Origin: Thermoplasmata archaeon
GTDB taxonomy: Archaea; Thermoplasmatota; Thermoplasmata; Sysuiplasmatales; Sysuiplasmataceae
Length of the DNA: 35,044 bases
NCBI GenBank assembly: GCA_021806165.1
Contig: JAJZXY010000019.1
Location: 1 to 35,044 of the forward strand
Direction of reading: 5' to 3'
The stretch's first letter is position 1, and each line of letters starts with the position of its first letter. The notes beneath the pieces are model-generated. The model was given only the letters and a program-made list of their open reading frames with translations, had not been told where the DNA came from and ran no database searches. The translations under genes and the position numbers were made by a program. Positions 18,717 to 26,003 of the stretch are shown here, in pieces.

Positions 18717-19442
18717 ATGGGCAGGGGCGCCGTGCTGGTCATTGCAATTCTTCTCCTCCTGCCGGCCGCGATACAGCAGGCGGCAGGCACTCAGGCAAAC
18801 CAGTACTATGCAAACAGGCTTCTCGATGTGGTCAGCACTCCGCAGCTAGCGCCCGGAGGAAGGGGCACGCTGGAGCTGGCGGTCTCCAACCCTTTCAATA
18901 CCACGCTGGACAACCTCACACTCGTTCTTTCAGTCTATGCATTCTCCACAGGGGGAGGCGAGGTGCAGCTCTCCTCGATTCCAGTTTCCGAAAGGCCTGC
19001 GATTGGGGGAAGCGGGACTTCCACGCAACTGCTGGTGCCCATAATGCTCCCGCAGACATCGGTGTATTTCAACATCACGGTGAGCACAACAGCGTCCACC
19101 AGGCACGGGGACTTCTTCAATCCAGGCACGTATTTCGTGAGCACATATGCCTCCTTCACCGCCTCCGGGCAGCAGATTAAGATGGGCTCCAGGGGAGTAT
19201 TCACGGCTGCTGAATGGAGTAGCATACTTGTGCAGAGCTCTGGAGGCAACTATCTGAACTACACCTACCTGAACGGCACGCTCGGCTATCAGGGAATACT
19301 TCCTGACACCTCATTCACAGTCAGCACACCCTCCCCTGTTTACCTTCTATGGGTCGCAGCAGGGCTCTCTGCCTTCTTTGCAGCAGCCGCATTTTTCGTT
19401 TACAGAAGGGGGCAGCTGCGAGGCGGAAGGCAATCTAGATGA
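18717..19442 (+). CDS. Secreted, C-terminally membrane-anchored protein
   Basis: A 241-residue protein with no recognised family. Residues 1-24 form a signal peptide (GAVLVIAILLLLPAAIQQAAG). Residues about 40-200 are a beta-rich, Ser/Thr/Asn-rich exported domain with several N-glycosylation sequons. The opening pattern STPQLAPGGRGTLELAVSNPFNTTLDNLTLVL resembles CARDB-like or NPCBM-associated Ig-fold domains. A transmembrane helix at about 207-229 (VYLLWVAAGLSAFFAAAAFFVY) ends in a basic cytoplasmic tail. The ATG fits leaderless transcription. The last eight bases overlap the convergent reductase gene. Confidence 0.75.
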   Translation: MGRGAVLVIAILLLLPAAIQQAAGTQANQYYANRLLDVVSTPQLAPGGRGTLELAVSNPFNTTLDNLTLVLSVYAFSTGGGEVQLSSIPVSERPAIGGSGTSTQLLVPIMLPQTSVYFNITVSTTASTRHGDFFNPGTYFVSTYASFTASGQQIKMGSRGVFTAAEWSSILVQSSGGNYLNYTYLNGTLGYQGILPDTSFTVSTPSPVYLLWVAAGLSAFFAAAAFFVYRRGQLRGGRQSR

Positions 19443-20607
19443 GTGCCCGTATCAGCTGCGGTGAAAAGCGCCACAGGCCAGGCTCCCTTGAGAGCATAAG
19501 TGGCGAAAGTTCGGTGGGGAAGTCTATGTCGCCGCCTGCCATCACCTCCTTGAGGGAGCTGTTGTCAAGCACGCTGAAAAACTGATCGAGCTTCTCATCG
19601 CTCATCTGAAGGAATATCCTCCTTACAAGAGCGGCCCTGTCGAGCTCCTTCCCGACTCCCCTCTTCCACTCGCTCTCGTATCTGGAGAGGAATCTCCTGG
19701 AAAAATCACCCCTTTCGAAGGCGGACAGCGCCACGCCTGCTGCAATCCCGCCCGCCGCCATTCCCGTGAATATGCCACCGCCCGATATGGGCTTGACCTG
19801 TCCCGCTGCGTCACCAATGATCATCACACCGTCAGCAGTCAGCCTTCCCCTGTTGCCCACGGGTATCGGACCCGCTGTGATATTCAGCCTCTTCCCTGCG
19901 CCGAGCTTCTCAAGCAGCCTCTCGAAGTAGCCGCTCGCGGGCATTACACCGCCGTATGTGCCAAGGCCTATGCGGGTGAAGCTCCCTCCCGGTATCGCCC
20001 AGGCGAAAAATCCCGGCGCGACTTCCGAACCGAAGTAGAGGCTGACGGCGTCCCCTTCATCCATCCCTCCCGTTACTGCGTCCGTCTGAACACATGAGAC
20101 TATTTCCCTGAACTTCGTGAGGCCGAATGTCCTTCCCACAGTGGATGATGCACCATCGGCGCCGATGAGAAGCGTGGTGCGCACATGCTTCTCCTCCCCC
20201 CTGTACATGTAGCGCACGTCAACTCCACCGTCGTCTCTCGCTGCTCCAGTGAACGAGGCTCCCAGCAGCATCGTCACATTCCTCCTCGCCGCCCTCTCTG
20301 CAAGGTGGATGTCAAGTGCGCTCCTGTCAATCACATAACCCTTGGGTGCCTCCCCCCTGAGTGACAGCCTGTTGCCCGCAGGGGAGACGAAATCCACTGC
20401 CTTTATCGTATTGTGCCAGCTTGAAAGACCGCTCATCTCAAGCACTCTGGGGCTGACAAGGCCGGAGCACTGGACAGGCTTGCCAATCTCGAAATTCTCC
20501 TCAAGCAGCAGCACGCTCCTCTCCTCGGCAGCCTTCCAGGCAAATGCGAGCCCGGCGGGTCCGCCCCCGGCCACCACAATGTCATATTCAGGGGAAGTCG
20601 AAGTCAT
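19435..20607 (-). CDS. Geranylgeranyl reductase family FAD enzyme
   Basis: A 390-residue flavoprotein of the digeranylgeranylglycerophospholipid reductase group, which saturates the isoprenoid chains of archaeal lipids. The FAD-binding VAGGGPAGLAFAWKAA is at residues 11-26, PVQCSGLVSPR near 43-53 (C-x-G), and GDAAGQVKPISGGGI near 270. These are family features. It lies 22 bases after the R2-like gene on the same strand, so the two are probably one transcript. With GGGPS and the UbiA-type enzyme it makes three lipid-core enzymes in the window, in two separate operons. Confidence 0.92.
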   Translation of the reverse strand: MTSTSPEYDIVVAGGGPAGLAFAWKAAEERSVLLLEENFEIGKPVQCSGLVSPRVLEMSGLSSWHNTIKAVDFVSPAGNRLSLRGEAPKGYVIDRSALDIHLAERAARRNVTMLLGASFTGAARDDGGVDVRYMYRGEEKHVRTTLLIGADGASSTVGRTFGLTKFREIVSCVQTDAVTGGMDEGDAVSLYFGSEVAPGFFAWAIPGGSFTRIGLGTYGGVMPASGYFERLLEKLGAGKRLNITAGPIPVGNRGRLTADGVMIIGDAAGQVKPISGGGIFTGMAAGGIAAGVALSAFERGDFSRRFLSRYESEWKRGVGKELDRAALVRRIFLQMSDEKLDQFFSVLDNSSLKEVMAGGDIDFPTELSPLMLSREPGLWRFSPQLIRALI

Positions 20608-20629
20608 TCAGCCACCACTGCAAAATATG

Positions 20630-21658
20630 TCAGAAGACTGGAACGATCTCATCGCCGTCAACATCGCCCACGTCATCTCCGCTAATACCCAGCTCGGGTA
20701 TCTCAGGAAGCCTGATGCCGTAGCGCTTCAGGGAAGAACCCACCTTCATCACAGCGGATCGCCACGCCTCTTCCTTTTCTGATAGGAGAGGGATGCCCAG
20801 CCCGGCATCCCTTGCTATGTCCTCCATCTTTTCGTTGACCTCCACAAAATAGTGCGGAAGCTTCCAGAATGTGTTGGACTTTTCGGGAAGCTTGTATGTT
20901 ATGAGGGAGAGGAAGATGAATCCTGCCTTGATCTGCTTTGTCACCAGCCTCTTCCTCTCCTCATTCATCTTCTCCGCCCCATCTGCCATTACAAGCTGGG
21001 TGAATGCATAATGTCTCGTCTCATCGACAGCTATCTGGCGGAAAGCCTCCCTGAAGGTGGATATCTTTGTATTGCCGGACATCTGCGTGAACACCGTGGT
21101 AGCGGCAGCCTCTCCCATCATGAAAGATGTGAACAGCACATCGGTTGAATACTTGTTGTATGAATCAAGATATGCCTTCCAGTACCTGGCACCGTTATAC
21201 CATGTCCAGATAATGTTGGCCCTGGCCCTCGCCTCCAGGTCGTTCGCCGGCTTGAATTTCATGGGGAAGCCCGGGCAGAGCTTGTTGATGCACATACCGC
21301 ACACTATGTTGTGCCTGTTCTCATCAAAAGCAATTGTGTTGAGAAGGCACCTTACAGCCGTCTTCTCCTTCAGCTCATGCGCCTTTACAACGGCATATGA
21401 GAACACGGGGTTTGCATTGTCAAATGTGGAAAGGAGTGCCCACCAGTATGCCATGGCCAGTCTCTCCTTGTTGTCCAGCCCAGTCACAATCTCGTCAAGC
21501 CTGGCCCAGTCGAGCTTCTCCTCATCCCACTGCTCTCTCTTGGACCTCGAATAGAGTCTCCACTCGAGATCGTTCCTGAACTCCCAGTCCGCCGGGTATA
21601 TGTTGTTTGGCGGAAACTCGGGCAGTTCTATCTTTTCCGTCCCTTCCCTCTCTTTCAT
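20630..21658 (-). CDS. R2-like ferritin-fold di-iron protein
   Basis: A 342-residue protein with the four-helix carboxylate di-metal pattern: Asp80 (likely), Glu113-x2-His116 in DENRH, Glu183 in GEAAAT, and Glu213-x2-His216 in DETRH. The spacing parallels ribonucleotide reductase R2 and R2-like oxidases. The residue four after the first His, which is the radical Tyr in classical R2, is Cys120 here. No RNR large subunit is nearby. An oxidase, oxygenase or desaturase role is therefore more likely than ribonucleotide reduction, but the substrate is unknown. The start ATG at 21658 has GCAGGA directly upstream and a TATA-like CTTAAATAAG about 31 bases ahead. It is first in an operon with geranylgeranyl reductase and divergent from two crotonase genes. 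Confidence 0.78.
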   Translation of the reverse strand: MKEREGTEKIELPEFPPNNIYPADWEFRNDLEWRLYSRSKREQWDEEKLDWARLDEIVTGLDNKERLAMAYWWALLSTFDNANPVFSYAVVKAHELKEKTAVRCLLNTIAFDENRHNIVCGMCINKLCPGFPMKFKPANDLEARARANIIWTWYNGARYWKAYLDSYNKYSTDVLFTSFMMGEAAATTVFTQMSGNTKISTFREAFRQIAVDETRHYAFTQLVMADGAEKMNEERKRLVTKQIKAGFIFLSLITYKLPEKSNTFWKLPHYFVEVNEKMEDIARDAGLGIPLLSEKEEAWRSAVMKVGSSLKRYGIRLPEIPELGISGDDVGDVDGDEIVPVF

Positions 21659-21671
21659 TCCTGCACGGTAT

Positions 21672-21693
21672 AGTGCACTGCCACTTATTTAAG
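21672..21693 (-). promoter_or_regulatory. Promoter of the R2-like/geranylgeranyl reductase operon
   Basis: The A/T box CTTAAATAAG (minus strand, 21684-21693) predicts a TSS near 21664. An 8-bp palindrome AGTGCACT (21672-21679) lies between box and TSS and could be an operator. Confidence 0.4.
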
Positions 21694-21762
21694 GGTGGCA
21701 TGGCTGCGGCGGCATGCTATAGTGTTAGATACACGAATACCGTTCTGTTTCAGTGGTTTGCT

Positions 21763-22530
21763 ATGCCGGGTACGGTCATTGTAGAGAGGAGCGGGAGGGT
21801 TGGAATCGTCCGCCTCAACAGGCCTGAGAAGCTGAATGCTGTAAACATGGAAATGGTGGGGGACCTGATAGCCGCGCTTGACGGGCTTGCGGACGATCGG
21901 GGCATCGGGGCGGTGGTGATTACGGGCAGCGGGAAGGCATTTTCGGCCGGGGCGGATGTTGCCGAGATGCTTTCGGCTGATGTGGAGGAACTGGAGGAAG
22001 GGGGACATCTTCCGCTCTGGCGGCGTCTGGAGTCCTTCGGCAAACCTGTGATAGCCGCACTCAACGGCATTACTGCGGGTGGAGGGCTGGAACTTGCAAT
22101 GGCCTGCGATATAGCACTCGCCTCCACTGCAGCCATGATCGGACAGACCGAGATCAACCTGGGAATCATTCCGGGCGCAGGCGGGACACAGAGACTCACG
22201 CGGGCCGTAGGCAAGCAGAAGGCGATGGAGATGATACTCACCGGCAGGCTCATCACCGCATCGGAAGCAGAGGAGTGCGGGCTGGTACTCAAGGCAGTGG
22301 GACCGGAAGGACTGATGGATGAAGCAGTGCGCATAGCCGGTGCTGCAGCTTCACACCCCCAATTCCCGCTGAGGCTCGCGAAAGAGAGCGTTAACCAGTC
22401 ATTCGAAAACCACCTGCGCCAGGGGCTTGAAGTGGAGAGGAGGAATTTCCTGCTCTCAGTGTCTTCGCACGATGGCAGGGAAGGGATGAAAGCATTCGTC
22501 GAGAAGAGGAAGCCGGAGTGGGGCCGATGA
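21763..22530 (+). CDS. Enoyl-CoA hydratase (crotonase family)
   Basis: A 255-residue crotonase. Both catalytic glutamates of classical enoyl-CoA hydratase are present: Glu110 in [11 protein letters not shown] and Glu130 in [15 protein letters not shown]. The oxyanion-hole segments [12 protein letters not shown] and [10 protein letters not shown] are intact. It should hydrate 2-enoyl-CoA thioesters in beta-oxidation or a related acyl-CoA pathway. The ATG at 21763 starts the family sequence ([23 protein letters not shown]); upstream in-frame codons are not conserved-looking. The stop overlaps the next crotonase start in ATGA. Confidence 0.93.
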
Positions 22531-23282
22531 GTCTTGTGGAGAGCAGACGGAACGGCAGCATTCTCCACATTACTCTGAACAGGCCCGACAAGCTGAACGC
22601 CCTCAGCCATGAAATGAGGCTGGAGCTTGTCAGCGCACTTAAGTCTGCCAACGGGTCGAGTGACGTAAGATGCGTGTTGCTGACGGGCTCGGGCCGTGCA
22701 TTCTCTGTGGGCGCGGATGTGGAGGGCATAGCGGACGACCTTGGCGAGGATCTCGCCTCCACGTTTCATCCGATCCTGAGGGAGATACGCTTCGGCAGCA
22801 AGATATTCCTTAGCGCAGTTTCTGGCATAGCCGCAGGCGCGGGCATGAGCATTGCACTCGCTGCGGACTTAAGGTTCTGCTCTCCCTCAGCGCGCTTTGT
22901 AACCGCTTTCCACAGGATCGGTCTTGCACCGGATACAGGCCTCGCCTACCTGCTCCCAAGGCTGATGGGGGGCGGCGTTTCAATGCGCCTGCTGCTCAAG
23001 GGCGGAGAGCTCAGCGGCCGTGACGCGGCAGAAGCGGGTCTGTTCACCTCTGACGAAGACCCTGAAAGAATCGCAGCGGGGGCTGCCGCGGAGATTGCCG
23101 ACGGCCCGTTCCTGGCACACGTCGAGAGCAAGAAACTGGTTAACGCATCGCTCTTTGGAGGCATGGATGATTTCCTGAATTTGGAGGCCGAATCTCAGCA
23201 GCGGCTCGGCGAAACAGCTGATTTCGCCGAAGGACGCAGGAGTTTTGCAGAAAAACGCCCGCCTGCATTCTCAGGCAGGTGA
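22527..23282 (+). CDS. Crotonase-family protein, PaaG-like isomerase candidate
   Basis: A 251-residue crotonase-fold protein, 4-base overlap with the preceding gene. CoA and oxyanion-hole segments are kept ([27 protein letters not shown]). The first hydratase Glu is replaced (Ser in GAGMSIALA). The second region reads [18 protein letters not shown], the Asp-containing pattern of PaaG-type enoyl-CoA isomerases rather than hydratases. An isomerase acting on the substrate or product of its partner is a reasonable inference. The ATG at 22527 is preferred over the GTG three codons upstream because of the ATGA coupling. Confidence 0.88.
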
Positions 23283-23315: not shown

Positions 23316-23558
23316 TCAAATCACATTGAAGATGAAAAGAAGCGCGACAGCAGCAAGCACCGTGATTGCAATCAGTATGACTATGACCGGGTCCACACCC
23401 TTCCTGCTTACCTGCTGCTCCCTCTTCTGCTCCTCCATATCCTCTTCACTCATGGGCTCAATGCCTATCAGCCTGTCAAGTTCATCCACCCACTCGTCAA
23501 GGGCATCCTTCTTCTCAGGCTCACTGCGCTCGGCCCCGCCCGGCTGCGACGAGCTCAT
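23316..23558 (-). CDS. Small tail-anchored membrane protein
   Basis: An 80-residue protein of unknown function. Residues 1-55 are highly charged and acidic ([27 protein letters not shown]). Residues about 57-78 form a single C-terminal transmembrane helix ([20 protein letters not shown]). The shape is that of a tail-anchored protein with a cytoplasmic acidic domain. Its ATG overlaps the transaldolase stop (ATGA), so it is the fourth gene of the transketolase operon. Confidence 0.72.
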
Positions 23559-24199
23559 TTCGGAACTCTCTCCCAGTCCTTGAGGAAGCGTTCCAGCCCT
23601 ATGTCAGTCAGGGGGTGTCTGATCATCGATTTCAGCACCGGGAAGGGAAGTGTTGCTATATGGGCACCAAGCTTCGCCGCCTGAACGAGATGCACCGGGT
23701 GCCTCACGCTGGCCACGAGCACTTCTGTACGGTAGGAGTAATGTGAGTATGAGGCCACAATGTCCTCTATTATCTGCATTCCCTCGTTGCCTACATCATC
23801 CAGTCTGCCAATGAAGGGGCTGACAAAGGTCGCGCCCGCCTTTGCGGCAAGGAGCGCCTGGTTAGCCGAGAAAACAAGTGTGACGTTTGTCCTTATGGTC
23901 TCTGATGAGAGTGTCTTAGTCGCCCTCAGCCCCTCGGCGGTCATAGGCACCTTCACAACAATCCTCCTGTTGATTCTTGCGAGAGCCCTCCCCTCTTTTA
24001 CCATTCCTTCGTGGTCAGTGCTGACCACTTCCGCGCTGACAGGGCCGTCAACAATGCTGCAAACCTCCCTGAGAACGTCTTCGAACTTCCTGCCTTCCTT
24101 GGATACAAGGGACGGGTTTGTCGTCACACCATCTATTACGCCCCATCCCCATGCTTCCCTTATCTCGCCTATGTTTGCCGTATCGAGAAACAGCTTCAT
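23555..24199 (-). CDS. tal: Transaldolase / fructose-6-phosphate aldolase family (TalC-like)
   Basis: A 214-residue short transaldolase. The Schiff-base Lys83 is in VVKVPMT. The N-terminus [16 protein letters not shown] and the motifs [37 protein letters not shown] and the C-terminal [13 protein letters not shown] are standard. It transfers dihydroxyacetone units between sugar phosphates in the non-oxidative pentose phosphate pathway; some members act only as fructose-6-phosphate aldolases. Linkage to both transketolase halves favours transaldolase. The ATG shares one base with the upstream stop. Confidence 0.95.
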
Positions 24200-25158
24200 C
24201 AGTTCAGTCTCCTCTTAAGCACAAGGGCGCGTTCAGCCGCCTGGACCGCCCCTTCAGTTGACAGGCCGTACTTTACAAGCAGTTCTGCAGCTTCCCCGGA
24301 TTCACCGAATGTGTCCTGCGTGCCGACCTTCACCACAGGCACGGGATAGGCGGATGCGGCCGCGGCGCACACGGCGTCCCCGAGTCCATTGACAACACTG
24401 TGCTCCTCCGCCGTCACAATTGCCCCAGTCCTTCTGGCCATCTTCTCCACGAGCCGTGCGTCCAGCGGTTTCACTGTGCTCATGTTGACCACCGCCGCAT
24501 CCACTCCGGACAGAGAGAGTTTTTCGGCTGCACTCAGGCAGGAATAGACCAGCTGACCGCAGGCAATGAATGTTATGTCAGAACCATCCCGGACGAGTGA
24601 TCCCTCTCCCAGCCTGAATTCATTCTTCTGCTCAAGGACAGGCACATCTGATCTGCTGAACCGCATGTATGCTGGCCCGTCCATTGAGGCAAGGGCGTAG
24701 GTGGCGGCATATGTTTCAGAAGCATCAGCCGGAACGACCACTGTCATGCCGGGGAGACCGCGCATGAGACCTATGTCTTCGAGCATCTGGTGCGTCGCGC
24801 CGTCCGGACCGACGGACAGACCAGCATGACTCGCGGCAATCTTCACATTTGTGCGCGGGTAGGCAACAGACTGCCTTATCTGATTATACGTCAGGCCCGT
24901 TGCAAACACAGCGAAGGTCGATGCAAAGACCAGCTTGCCGCTCATCGCCAGCCCCGCCGCAGTCGTAACCATATTCGCCTCGGAGACGCCGCAGTTGAAG
25001 AAGCGCTCCGGATATGCCTTCCCGAACTCGCCTGTCCTGGTTGACACGGAAAGGTCCGCATCCAGGACTACAAGATCACTGTTCTTGCCGCCTATCTCGA
25101 CGAGTGCCCTGCCATACTCCTTCCTCTGGCTGGCCAGTTTAGCCTGCTGTGCGCTCAT
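24199..25158 (-). CDS. Transketolase, C-terminal (pyrimidine-binding and TKC) subunit
   Basis: A 319-residue second half of a split transketolase. It carries the cofactor-activating Glu region [20 protein letters not shown], the aromatic [11 protein letters not shown]-like segment, [17 protein letters not shown], and the C-terminal domain with [18 protein letters not shown] and GLGDAV. The ATG overlaps the upstream N-subunit stop by four bases, so the two chains are made together. Split transketolases are usual in archaea. Confidence 0.95.
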
Positions 25159-26003
25159 TTACCGACCCCCGCCCCGTCGAGCTCGGCAAGCGCCCTGACA
25201 GTCTCTTCGCTGTTAGGCGCCTTGCCGTGGAATGCAACGTTGTTTTCCATGAAAGAAACACCCTTTCCCTTGACTGTGTTCGCTATTATGGCAGTGGGCT
25301 TCCCCTTGATGCTGAGAGACTCGGTGTAGGCATCAACAATCTCCTTCATGCTGTGGCCGTCTATGACAATCACATGCCAGCCGAAGGCCCGCCACTTGTC
25401 CTCCAGGGGGCTTGTGTCGAGTATCTGCCTGGTAAACCCATCATTCTGAATGCCATTCCTGTCGACAAAAACAGTGATGTTGTCAAGCTTCCTGAACGAG
25501 GCAAACATTGCCGCCTCCCATGTCTGCCCCTCGTCATTTTCACCATCGCTCAGGAGGGCAACTATCCTTCTGTCGCTGCCGTCAAGCCTGCTCGCGAGGG
25601 AGAAGCCGTTTGCAATGGAAAGCCCCTGGCCGAGAGAGCCTGTCGAAACTTCCACACCCGGGACATCTGTATGTGCATGCCCCTGCATCCTGCTCCCCAG
25701 TTTCCGGAGAGTCATGAGTTCATCCTTGGAGAAGTAGCCTGCCTCGGCAAGGACAGAATAGTAGCAAGGAGCAGCATGTCCCTTGCTCAGTATAAACTTG
25801 TCCCTTCCAGGCCATCTGGGGTTATCCGGATCATTCTTAAGCAGCCTGAAGTAGAGCGCCGTGAGTATGTCCGCGGAAGAGAGGGAGCCACCCGGATGGC
25901 CAGAGCCGGCGGCGCTGGTAACCCTGATTATGTCCTTCCTTACCTCCCTGGCAATTCTCTCTAGCTCTTCAATGGACCGTGCCTTTGGGAGCTGTTCAAC
26001 CAA
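25155..26003 (-). CDS. Transketolase, N-terminal (thiamine diphosphate-binding) subunit
   Basis: A 282-residue first half of a split transketolase. His36 is in SGHPGGSLSSADI. The cofactor region is GSLGQGLSIANG, then SDGENDEGQTWEAAMFA and DRNGIQND; the usual first Gly of the GDG motif is Ser here. It makes ribose-5-phosphate and erythrose-4-phosphate with the C subunit and the transaldolase. The start is TTG at 26003, with GGGTGTG about ten bases upstream. TATTTAAT (26041-26048) is the probable TATA box. It is the first gene of a four-gene operon. Confidence 0.94.
   Translation of the reverse strand: MVEQLPKARSIEELERIAREVRKDIIRVTSAAGSGHPGGSLSSADILTALYFRLLKNDPDNPRWPGRDKFILSKGHAAPCYYSVLAEAGYFSKDELMTLRKLGSRMQGHAHTDVPGVEVSTGSLGQGLSIANGFSLASRLDGSDRRIVALLSDGENDEGQTWEAAMFASFRKLDNITVFVDRNGIQNDGFTRQILDTSPLEDKWRAFGWHVIVIDGHSMKEIVDAYTESLSIKGKPTAIIANTVKGKGVSFMENNVAFHGKAPNSEETVRALAELDGAGVGK

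Follow-up and report, generated by a model that had tools for sequence, protein, structure and literature searches.

An R2-like di-metal protein encoded beside Paa-type crotonases in archaea and bacteria: a candidate single-subunit arylacetyl-CoA oxygenase

Background

To our knowledge, the known enzymes that epoxidise the aromatic ring of a CoA-bound substrate are PaaABCE and BoxB. We describe here a locus on contig JAJZXY010000019.1 of a Thermoplasmata archaeon (assembly GCA_021806165.1), positions 1-35,044 of which form the window analysed, where the gene for an R2-like di-metal protein is followed by that of a geranylgeranyl reductase (GGR)-superfamily flavoprotein and faces two crotonase genes. 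PaaABCE and BoxB are presented as the CoA-bound ring epoxidases in PMC4498308, which also has PaaG acting after the epoxidase in the Paa pathway. A 2026 survey of that pathway, as far as its available text goes, applied a context filter requiring PaaABCDE and reported archaeal cases only in Halobacteria (PMC13186573); such a filter would have missed the R2-like loci.

We propose that the R2-like protein is probably a two-component di-iron mono-oxygenase (epoxidase) acting on the ring of an arylacetyl-CoA, a job like that of PaaABCE. Substrate and reaction are inferred from the gene context in archaea and bacteria, the reductase encoded next door in Betaproteobacteria, the conservation of the metal ligands and the fold. 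The pathway itself is already known; the candidate oxygenase is what is new to it. No description of this family or of its gene arrangement was found in the open-access literature, subscription papers being outside the search, and the available portions of PMC7820114 (on growth of Saccharolobus on phenol), PMC9613470 and PMC6515984 contain nothing on the protein.

Results

An R2-like family with an invariant cysteine

Of 168 relatives of the R2-like protein found among 84,980 species genomes, the best 80 were kept as loci; these come from Thermoplasmata, Sulfolobales, Thermoproteales, Actinomycetota, Myxococcota, Pseudomonadota and Eremiobacterota/Vulcanimicrobiota. Conservation was assessed in 103 distinct relatives, drawn from the 119 hits that covered at least 85% of the query. 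The predicted metal ligands are D80, E113, H116, E183, E213 and H216, and C120 lies four residues beyond the first His ligand, at the position of the radical Tyr of R2 proteins (or of the Phe of class Ic). Residues E113, H116, C120, E183, E213 and H216 are invariant in all 103 relatives, as are R158, W160, T177 and S178, whilst at position 80 Asp occurs in 100 and Glu in three; a further 15 sequences from later loci, some of them genes already counted, are concordant. The full ligand set with Cys120 in place of the radical Tyr, as read in a preliminary description of this DNA, is thus confirmed, and the Cys is shared by all the relatives compared.

The window protein ends in an acidic tail (..IVPVF), reminiscent of the C-terminal tail of R2. 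Most of the archaeal and bacterial sequences displayed have a conserved tail of acidic-aromatic character (..EED-IIPVF and its variants), which is absent from those of loci L018, L057, L153 and L154 (L and G numbers are our own labels for loci and genomes). The proteins with Glu80 (L057, L089, which is the same place as L154, and L090, the same as L153) represent a second type. This shorter, tail-less subfamily occurs in two genomes of the window's order and in one further archaeon (L057); the two copies from the order lie at 6871-7839 in L153 (G005) and at 5542-6510 in L154 (G006, the same gene as L018), and by eye a heme-copper-oxidase-like gene follows the former.

The AlphaFold model of the window protein (pLDDT 88.0, pTM 0.90) resembles a Kitasatospora protein with ADO activity, VlmB, R2lox, ADO, PaaC and sMMO, with Z scores of 15.4-17.5 in VIA-align; the Kitasatospora protein, VlmB, R2lox and others are tied in this ranking, on which no choice of function was based. 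Foldseek returned no match to the model at E <=0.001. Judged from alignment and model, the protein is predicted to adopt a ferritin-like di-metal oxygenase fold, a helix bundle with two (E/D)..ExxH-type sites. A phmmer search with the single protein against PDB sequences gave nothing at E 1, whilst the family profile identified R2lox as the nearest solved family (best E 2.1e-5). No curated family claims the protein, matches to PF00268, Rubrerythrin, AurF and R2lox all falling below their cut-offs. PHROGs gave no match to it at E 0.1, and a phage collection none to the Variovorax copy. In a family tree of 56 of the 119 hits, from which most actinobacterial rows, identical rows and a number of loci that were fragments or duplicates (L001, L012, L014, L082, L083 and L094-L105) had been dropped, the window's clade lies among archaeal copies; the fork that unites it with the Sulfolobales-type copies has weak support (88/79), the tree is midpoint-rooted with long branches meeting, and no donor is named.

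The R2-like gene is accompanied by Paa-type genes

Both window crotonases exceed the PF00378 cut-off. Crotonase 1 retains the two catalytic Glu residues of hydratases, both of which crotonase 2 lacks. The best solved relatives of crotonase 2 are 6sl9, 6slb, 3hrx, 2ej5, 6sla and 4fzw_C, among which we take 2ej5 and 6sla to be PaaG, 4fzw_C is named 1,2-epoxyphenylacetyl-CoA isomerase, and 6sl9 and 6slb carry the sequence of 3hrx. In PMC4498308, 3HRX is grouped under PaaG. The GLAPDTG motif of crotonase 2 aligns with GLVPDSG of that structure, and its score against the TIGR02280 equivalog model, 182.6 bits, does not reach the cut-off of 345; on motif and PDB relatives it is classed as a putative PaaG-type isomerase. 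When 70 crotonase hits were compared, duplicates and non-linked genes included, the archaeal R2-linked ones split into the same PaaF and PaaG types.

The R2-like gene is present in seven of the eight genomes of the window's order, being split across two contigs in G002; the eighth genome is 69% complete. In all seven, PaaF- and PaaG-type crotonase genes adjoin it (the PaaG motif was checked in these loci, its position falling outside the stretch in L087), and a GGR gene is adjacent in six, the seventh (contig C211 of G006) having a start fragment of one at the contig end. Of 389 genomes sampled from the phylum, the window's own alone had the R2-like gene at E 1e-30, and the gene was therefore probably acquired by the window's order. 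Conservation of the neighbourhood, which the preliminary description had offered as a check, thus holds in the order, while for Thermoplasmatota at large the system is not typical. PF05138, the PaaA/PaaC family, is absent from all eight genomes of the order. Elsewhere in the window's genome there are hydroxyacyl-CoA dehydrogenases, a thiolase-DUF35 pair and an aldehyde dehydrogenase of the general type, no genome search having been directed at PaaN or PaaZ.

Among 229 Thermoproteota genomes, from the class of Metallosphaera javensis, 29 are R2-positive, and the stretches around the R2-like copies were read in all of these, with flanks of up to about 10 kb, shorter at contig ends. A PaaG-type crotonase lies within the stretch in 22 of the 29, with the Asp present every time; a PaaK-like ligase, DUF35, a thiolase and the PaaF- and PaaG-type genes are found all together in 18, often with a PaaI-like thioesterase or a hydroxyacyl-CoA dehydrogenase. 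The ligase scanned scored 405 bits against PaaK (cut-off 646) and the PaaI-like protein 98.4 against its own model (cut-off 118.9), so these are relatives rather than equivalogs. HpaB- and HpaD-like genes are also present in Pyrobaculum oguniense (L016), L115 and L169; in L016, HpaD is over its cut-off and HpaB below. Six genomes have a second R2-like copy (L005, L009, L118, L125, L127 and L165) with no PaaG, PaaK, DUF35 or thiolase gene nearby, that of L127 having an aldehyde-dehydrogenase-like hit in its vicinity, and these provide an internal contrast to the Paa-linked copies. In Metallosphaera-type genomes, the second copies of loci read by eye (L005, L009 and L118) stand among ParA/MinD-like ATPase genes, away from any phenylacetate gene seen; L125 was examined by queries only.

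In bacteria, the fullest clusters are on Variovorax plasmids (L158, L160 and L161, the last unannotated and read by similarity), where genes for MaoC/PaaZ-C, a crotonase with the Asp motif (AVLDSGG), an OB-fold protein, a thiolase and a PaaK-like AMP ligase precede the R2-like gene, whose annotation in L158 and L160 reads 'hypothetical protein'. PaaN is present in L160 and L161 (PaaN_2, 624.7 bits, cut-off 578.75) and a CoA transferase in L160. Directly downstream of the R2-like gene is that of a 2Fe-2S flavoreductase (BenC 155, MmoC 141 and PaaE 97 bits, all below cut-off), then come an ABC transporter (L158, L160) and an indolepyruvate ferredoxin oxidoreductase (IOR)-family gene; L158 and L160 also have an Lrp-type regulator. 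The IOR-family gene and this regulator hint at an amino-acid-derived aryl- or indole-acetyl-CoA as substrate. On pVF1 of Vitreoscilla filiformis, the R2-like gene and its own reductase gene come after paaIKABCDE, pcaF and paaZ, with a single opposite-strand hydrolase gene between, and hpa genes lie a few genes beyond. In Vulcanimicrobiota, locus L029 combines a MaoC-like gene with a ligase that shares 57% identity with its Variovorax counterpart, and L065 has a PaaI-like gene near its R2-like copy. Seven Myxococcota and Pseudomonadota loci were examined: in four (L019, L030, L033 and L046) the adjoining single crotonase has the Asp and lacks both Glu, whilst L045, L052 and L079, from Pseudomonadota, have a dehydrogenase and a thiolase with no crotonase hit nearby. 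The likeness to phenylacetate degradation that the preliminary description had remarked upon is hence strengthened, Paa-type neighbours recurring in the order, in Thermoproteota and on the Variovorax plasmids. HpaB/HpaD aside, no oxygenase candidate other than the R2-like protein was recognised in the archaeal and Variovorax stretches, which were read by eye and with named queries covering part of the ORFs.

Comparison with described di-iron oxygenases

With PaaABC(D)E the R2-like protein shares a ferritin-like di-metal fold and similar gene neighbours (PaaG-, PaaF-, PaaK- and PaaI-like proteins, thiolase and hydroxyacyl-CoA dehydrogenase, together with PaaN, PaaZ-C and a PaaE/MmoC/BenC-like reductase in Variovorax). 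It differs in being one subunit instead of PaaA, PaaB and PaaC, in its invariant Cys and conserved acidic tail, and in lying outside the PaaA/PaaC profiles: the window protein matched none of PF05138, TIGR02156 and TIGR02158 at E 0.1, and no such match is listed for 29 family members. BoxB, the benzoyl-CoA 2,3-epoxidase, is likewise a di-iron epoxidase of a CoA thioester and has a crotonase partner, BoxC (PMC4498308); the R2-like protein is shorter, has other partners and gave no match to the BoxB model TIGR03225 at E 0.1. Similarity to the AurF profile was detected in 25 of the 29 members, weakly, and among the N-oxygenases of this group VlmB matches the fold with a Z of 17.0 (17.5 for the ADO-active Kitasatospora protein); however, the window protein scores 19.7 bits against PF11583, where the cut-off is 29.6, and no context of amine oxidation was seen.

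A proposed pathway

The R2-like protein is very probably an oxygenase, as opposed to a structural or storage protein. In the scheme we favour, an aryl-acetic acid or aryl-pyruvate would be converted to the arylacetyl-CoA, by the PaaK-like ligase in Thermoproteota, Variovorax and Vulcanimicrobiota and by some other route in the window's order, where no PaaK-like gene was found. The R2-like di-iron site, once reduced by a partner, would then place one oxygen atom of O2 on the ring to give the ring epoxide, so that a single subunit of the R2 lineage would do the work of PaaABC(D)E; the adjoining PaaE/MmoC/BenC-like flavo-2Fe-2S protein would be the reductant in Variovorax and Vitreoscilla, and the GGR-family flavoprotein of the window is an archaeal candidate. 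To judge from its relatives and the conserved Asp, the PaaG-type crotonase would rearrange the epoxide to the oxepin. Hydrolysis and aldehyde oxidation, predicted for MaoC/PaaZ-C and PaaN in Variovorax, would open the ring, and the PaaF-type hydratase, hydroxyacyl-CoA dehydrogenase and thiolase/DUF35 would putatively complete the sequence by beta-oxidation. Phenylacetyl-CoA, hydroxyphenylacetyl-CoA and indoleacetyl-CoA are all candidates for the natural substrate; that phenylacetyl-CoA itself is used in the window's organism seems somewhat doubtful, given that PaaK was not found in genomes of the order and that Vitreoscilla keeps both systems.

Several observations weigh against this proposal. 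Near the window, neither a PaaE-like reductase nor a MaoC partner was identified, and the TIGR02155 PaaK model gives no hit in any of the eight genomes of the order. IOR was considered as the substrate feed there; IOR_alpha falls below its cut-off in all eight. A PaaG neighbour is missing from the stretch read in seven of the 29 R2-positive Thermoproteota (G010, G011, G013, G057, G058, G059 and G257), with contigs of G011, G013, G057 and G059 ending nearby on at least one side, and with the queries used the actinobacterial copies have no paa neighbours within about 6 kb. The presence of PaaG is in any case no proof of an epoxide, as PaaG also performs simple enoyl-CoA isomerisation (PMC4498308). 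Were the R2-like protein a simple replacement of PF05138, the two should exclude each other in Thermoproteota; instead, PF05138 occurs in ten of the 229 genomes and all ten are R2-positive, which led to the rejection of that idea. PF05138 is also over its cut-off in 24 of 44 R2-positive genomes of a mixed set, 18 of them actinobacterial, the remaining six being one archaeal and five Myxococcota or Pseudomonadota genomes whose hits are weak (E of roughly 1e-13 to 1e-6); in 14 of the 44, all actinobacterial, it is found at E <1e-60. In Metallosphaera yellowstonensis (L126) a PF05138 pair lies beside thiolase, DUF35, PaaK and dehydrogenase genes, and in Vitreoscilla the R2-like gene shares one cluster with paaABCDE. 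Two di-iron systems therefore coexist in the same genomes, and the R2-like protein is not simply the PaaABCE of organisms that lack PaaABCE; because of this coexistence, it may take a different arylacetyl-CoA from that of the PaaA/PaaC system.

In L123 and L124, of the Saccharolobus/Sulfolobus type, a PaaA/PaaC- or BoxB-like pair lies with a crotonase and an AMP ligase. The L123 protein, from a locus separate from the R2-like gene, scores 105.4 bits with BoxB and 96.3 with PaaA, both far below the cut-offs, and beside the pair are a PaaX-like regulator (219.7 bits, cut-off 264.6) and, by eye, the AMP ligase. These pairs possibly constitute a benzoyl-CoA or aryl-CoA epoxidase locus. In PMC5134839, SSO2017-2018 are described as an enoyl-CoA hydratase and a 1,2-phenylacetyl-CoA epoxidase-like protein with a possible role in benzoate use, and loci such as L123 would appear to correspond to them.

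Alternative explanations

Likeness to R2 raises the question of whether the protein is a small subunit of class I ribonucleotide reductase (RNR). It shares with R2 the six-ligand set and its spacing, the fold and an acidic C-terminal tail, and it matches PF00268, at 27.9 bits against a cut-off of 33.6; it is the only protein of its genome to do so. It has Cys where R2 has the radical Tyr, and a PF02867 search of the genome, which is 95.9% complete, found no class I large subunit. The single PF02867 gene, on another contig (C20), encodes a B12-dependent NrdJ, over the cut-offs of two B12-dependent RNR models (1241.9 against 859 and 575 against 400 bits) and under that of NrdE_NrdA (230.8 against 341). 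The view of the preliminary description, which had noted no large subunit nearby, that this is not an RNR subunit is supported. With the sub-threshold PF00268 match, the Cys in every relative and the NrdJ, we reject a role in class I RNR, the chance of which is negligible. Another alternative is an oxidase like R2lox, which would bind a long-chain lipid and make an internal cross-link with no part in a pathway. R2lox is the closest solved family by profile and ranks with the best fold matches (Z of at most 17.2, level with others), and alkane oxidation has been reported for an R2lox from Geobacillus (PMC10867098). However, the window protein scores only 17.9 bits with the NCBIfam R2lox model (a model that 16 of the 29 family members match), the cut-off being 194, and its gene context is different and speaks for a pathway. 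Val72 of R2lox forms the ether cross-link; in the weak profile alignment, the residue three after the first ligand is Asn83 in the window protein and Ala, Thr or Gly in the other rows displayed, with no Val. An R2lox-like role is hence very improbable. In PMC5134839, the Sulfolobus NrdB-like protein SSO2498 has Phe at the Tyr site and groups with R2lox, which places it outside the family described here.

The preliminary description had itself suggested that prenyl or lipid/acyl-CoA chains might be the substrates of an oxidative pathway in which GGR is a partner. The co-orientation of GGR and its retention beside the R2-like gene in the order favour this, and crotonases serve fatty-acid beta-oxidation too. 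The window GGR exceeds the TIGR02032 cut-off (194.2 against 158.8 bits), but the genome has four such genes over the cut-off (242, 241, 195 for that of the window and 194 bits), one of the others adjoining, by eye, a polyprenyl-synthase-like gene; with three other paralogs, two of them higher-scoring, the window copy is an extra one that says little about lipids. In addition, those loci outside the order that were scanned with the window GGR as query showed no GGR close to the R2-like gene, and the PaaK-, PaaN- and PaaZ-C-like partners seen elsewhere are aromatic-pathway enzymes, leaving the suggestion improbable. Lying directly after the R2-like gene, kept through the order and not found beside R2-like genes elsewhere, GGR may rather be a lineage-specific redox partner or enoyl reductase. 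Alternatively, the R2-like protein could belong to the same cluster and be no epoxidase, hydroxylating the ring or side chain of a related CoA thioester, for instance hydroxyphenylacetyl-CoA or indoleacetyl-CoA, ahead of a Paa-type lower pathway. The presence of a full paaABCDE set and of hpa genes in the same Vitreoscilla cluster, the HpaB/HpaD-like genes of L016, L115 and L169, and the IOR-family gene and amino-acid-type transporters in Variovorax would all fit, whereas the PaaG-type isomerase of archaea and bacteria and the PaaN and MaoC/PaaZ-C of Variovorax are enzymes of the epoxide/oxepin route, and hydroxylation is accordingly rather unlikely, if worth entertaining.

A wider version of the arylacetyl-CoA epoxidase proposal can be offered only tentatively. 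The R2 lineage, apart from PaaA and BoxB, might have yielded a single-subunit CoA-arene epoxidase shared by archaea, Actinomycetota, Myxococcota and Betaproteobacteria, in which the invariant Cys would be catalytic (as redox gate, metal ligand or thiyl), the C-terminal tail would dock the reductase or PaaG, and a GGR-type flavoprotein would serve as reductase in the window's lineage. Should the arylacetyl-CoA proposal be right, there would be a second, simpler di-iron enzyme for CoA-bound ring epoxidation, which would help to fill gaps in the aromatic catabolism of Sulfolobales, Pyrobaculum and Sysuiplasma-type archaea. The invariant Cys at the radical-Tyr site would offer a new handle on how the R2 fold chooses between radical storage and oxygenation.

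Organisation of the window locus

All four open reading frames (ORFs) lie where the preliminary description had placed them, with the R2-like and GGR genes co-oriented and divergent from the crotonase pair (Table 1). The GGR-family ORF begins 22 bp downstream of the R2-like ORF, and crotonase 2 overlaps crotonase 1 by 13 bp. Crotonase 1 is given from its ATG, a longer version from a TTG at 21607 being likewise open.

Table 1. Features of the R2-like locus, 19435-23282 of the window
Feature	Coordinates	Strand	Basis
GGR-superfamily flavoprotein, 390 aa; candidate redox partner or C=C reductase	19435..20607	-	TIGR02032
R2-like di-metal protein, 342 aa; proposed oxygenase component	20630..21658	-	ORF, alignment, AlphaFold model
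Divergent intergenic region of 104 bp separating the R2-like gene from crotonase 1 (ATG); probable shared promoter region	21659..21762		Coordinates
Crotonase 1, putative PaaF-type 2-enoyl-CoA hydratase; GGGLE and GQTE	21763..22530	+	PF00378, motif
Crotonase 2, putative PaaG-type isomerase; lacks both Glu, motif GLAPDTG	22518..23282	+	PF00378, motif, PDB relatives

The genome containing the window is 1.88 Mb, and its close relatives are metagenome-assembled genomes of Thermoplasmata, one of them named 'Candidatus Sysuiplasma superficiale'. Past the crotonases, at 23555-26003 on the minus strand, are transaldolase-like and split transketolase-like genes; in L002 and L003, by eye, the space separating these genes from the crotonases holds insertions of an NRAMP-like transporter gene and a PadR-like regulator gene. 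A putative regulator of AbrB/PhoU-like type lies beside the R2-like gene in the Sulfolobales-type loci L110, L113, L116, L121 and L013 (by eye, the L113 copy having no NCBIfam match), and a CitE/HpcH-like lyase gene is seen by eye in the R2-like stretches of L010, L015 and L119.

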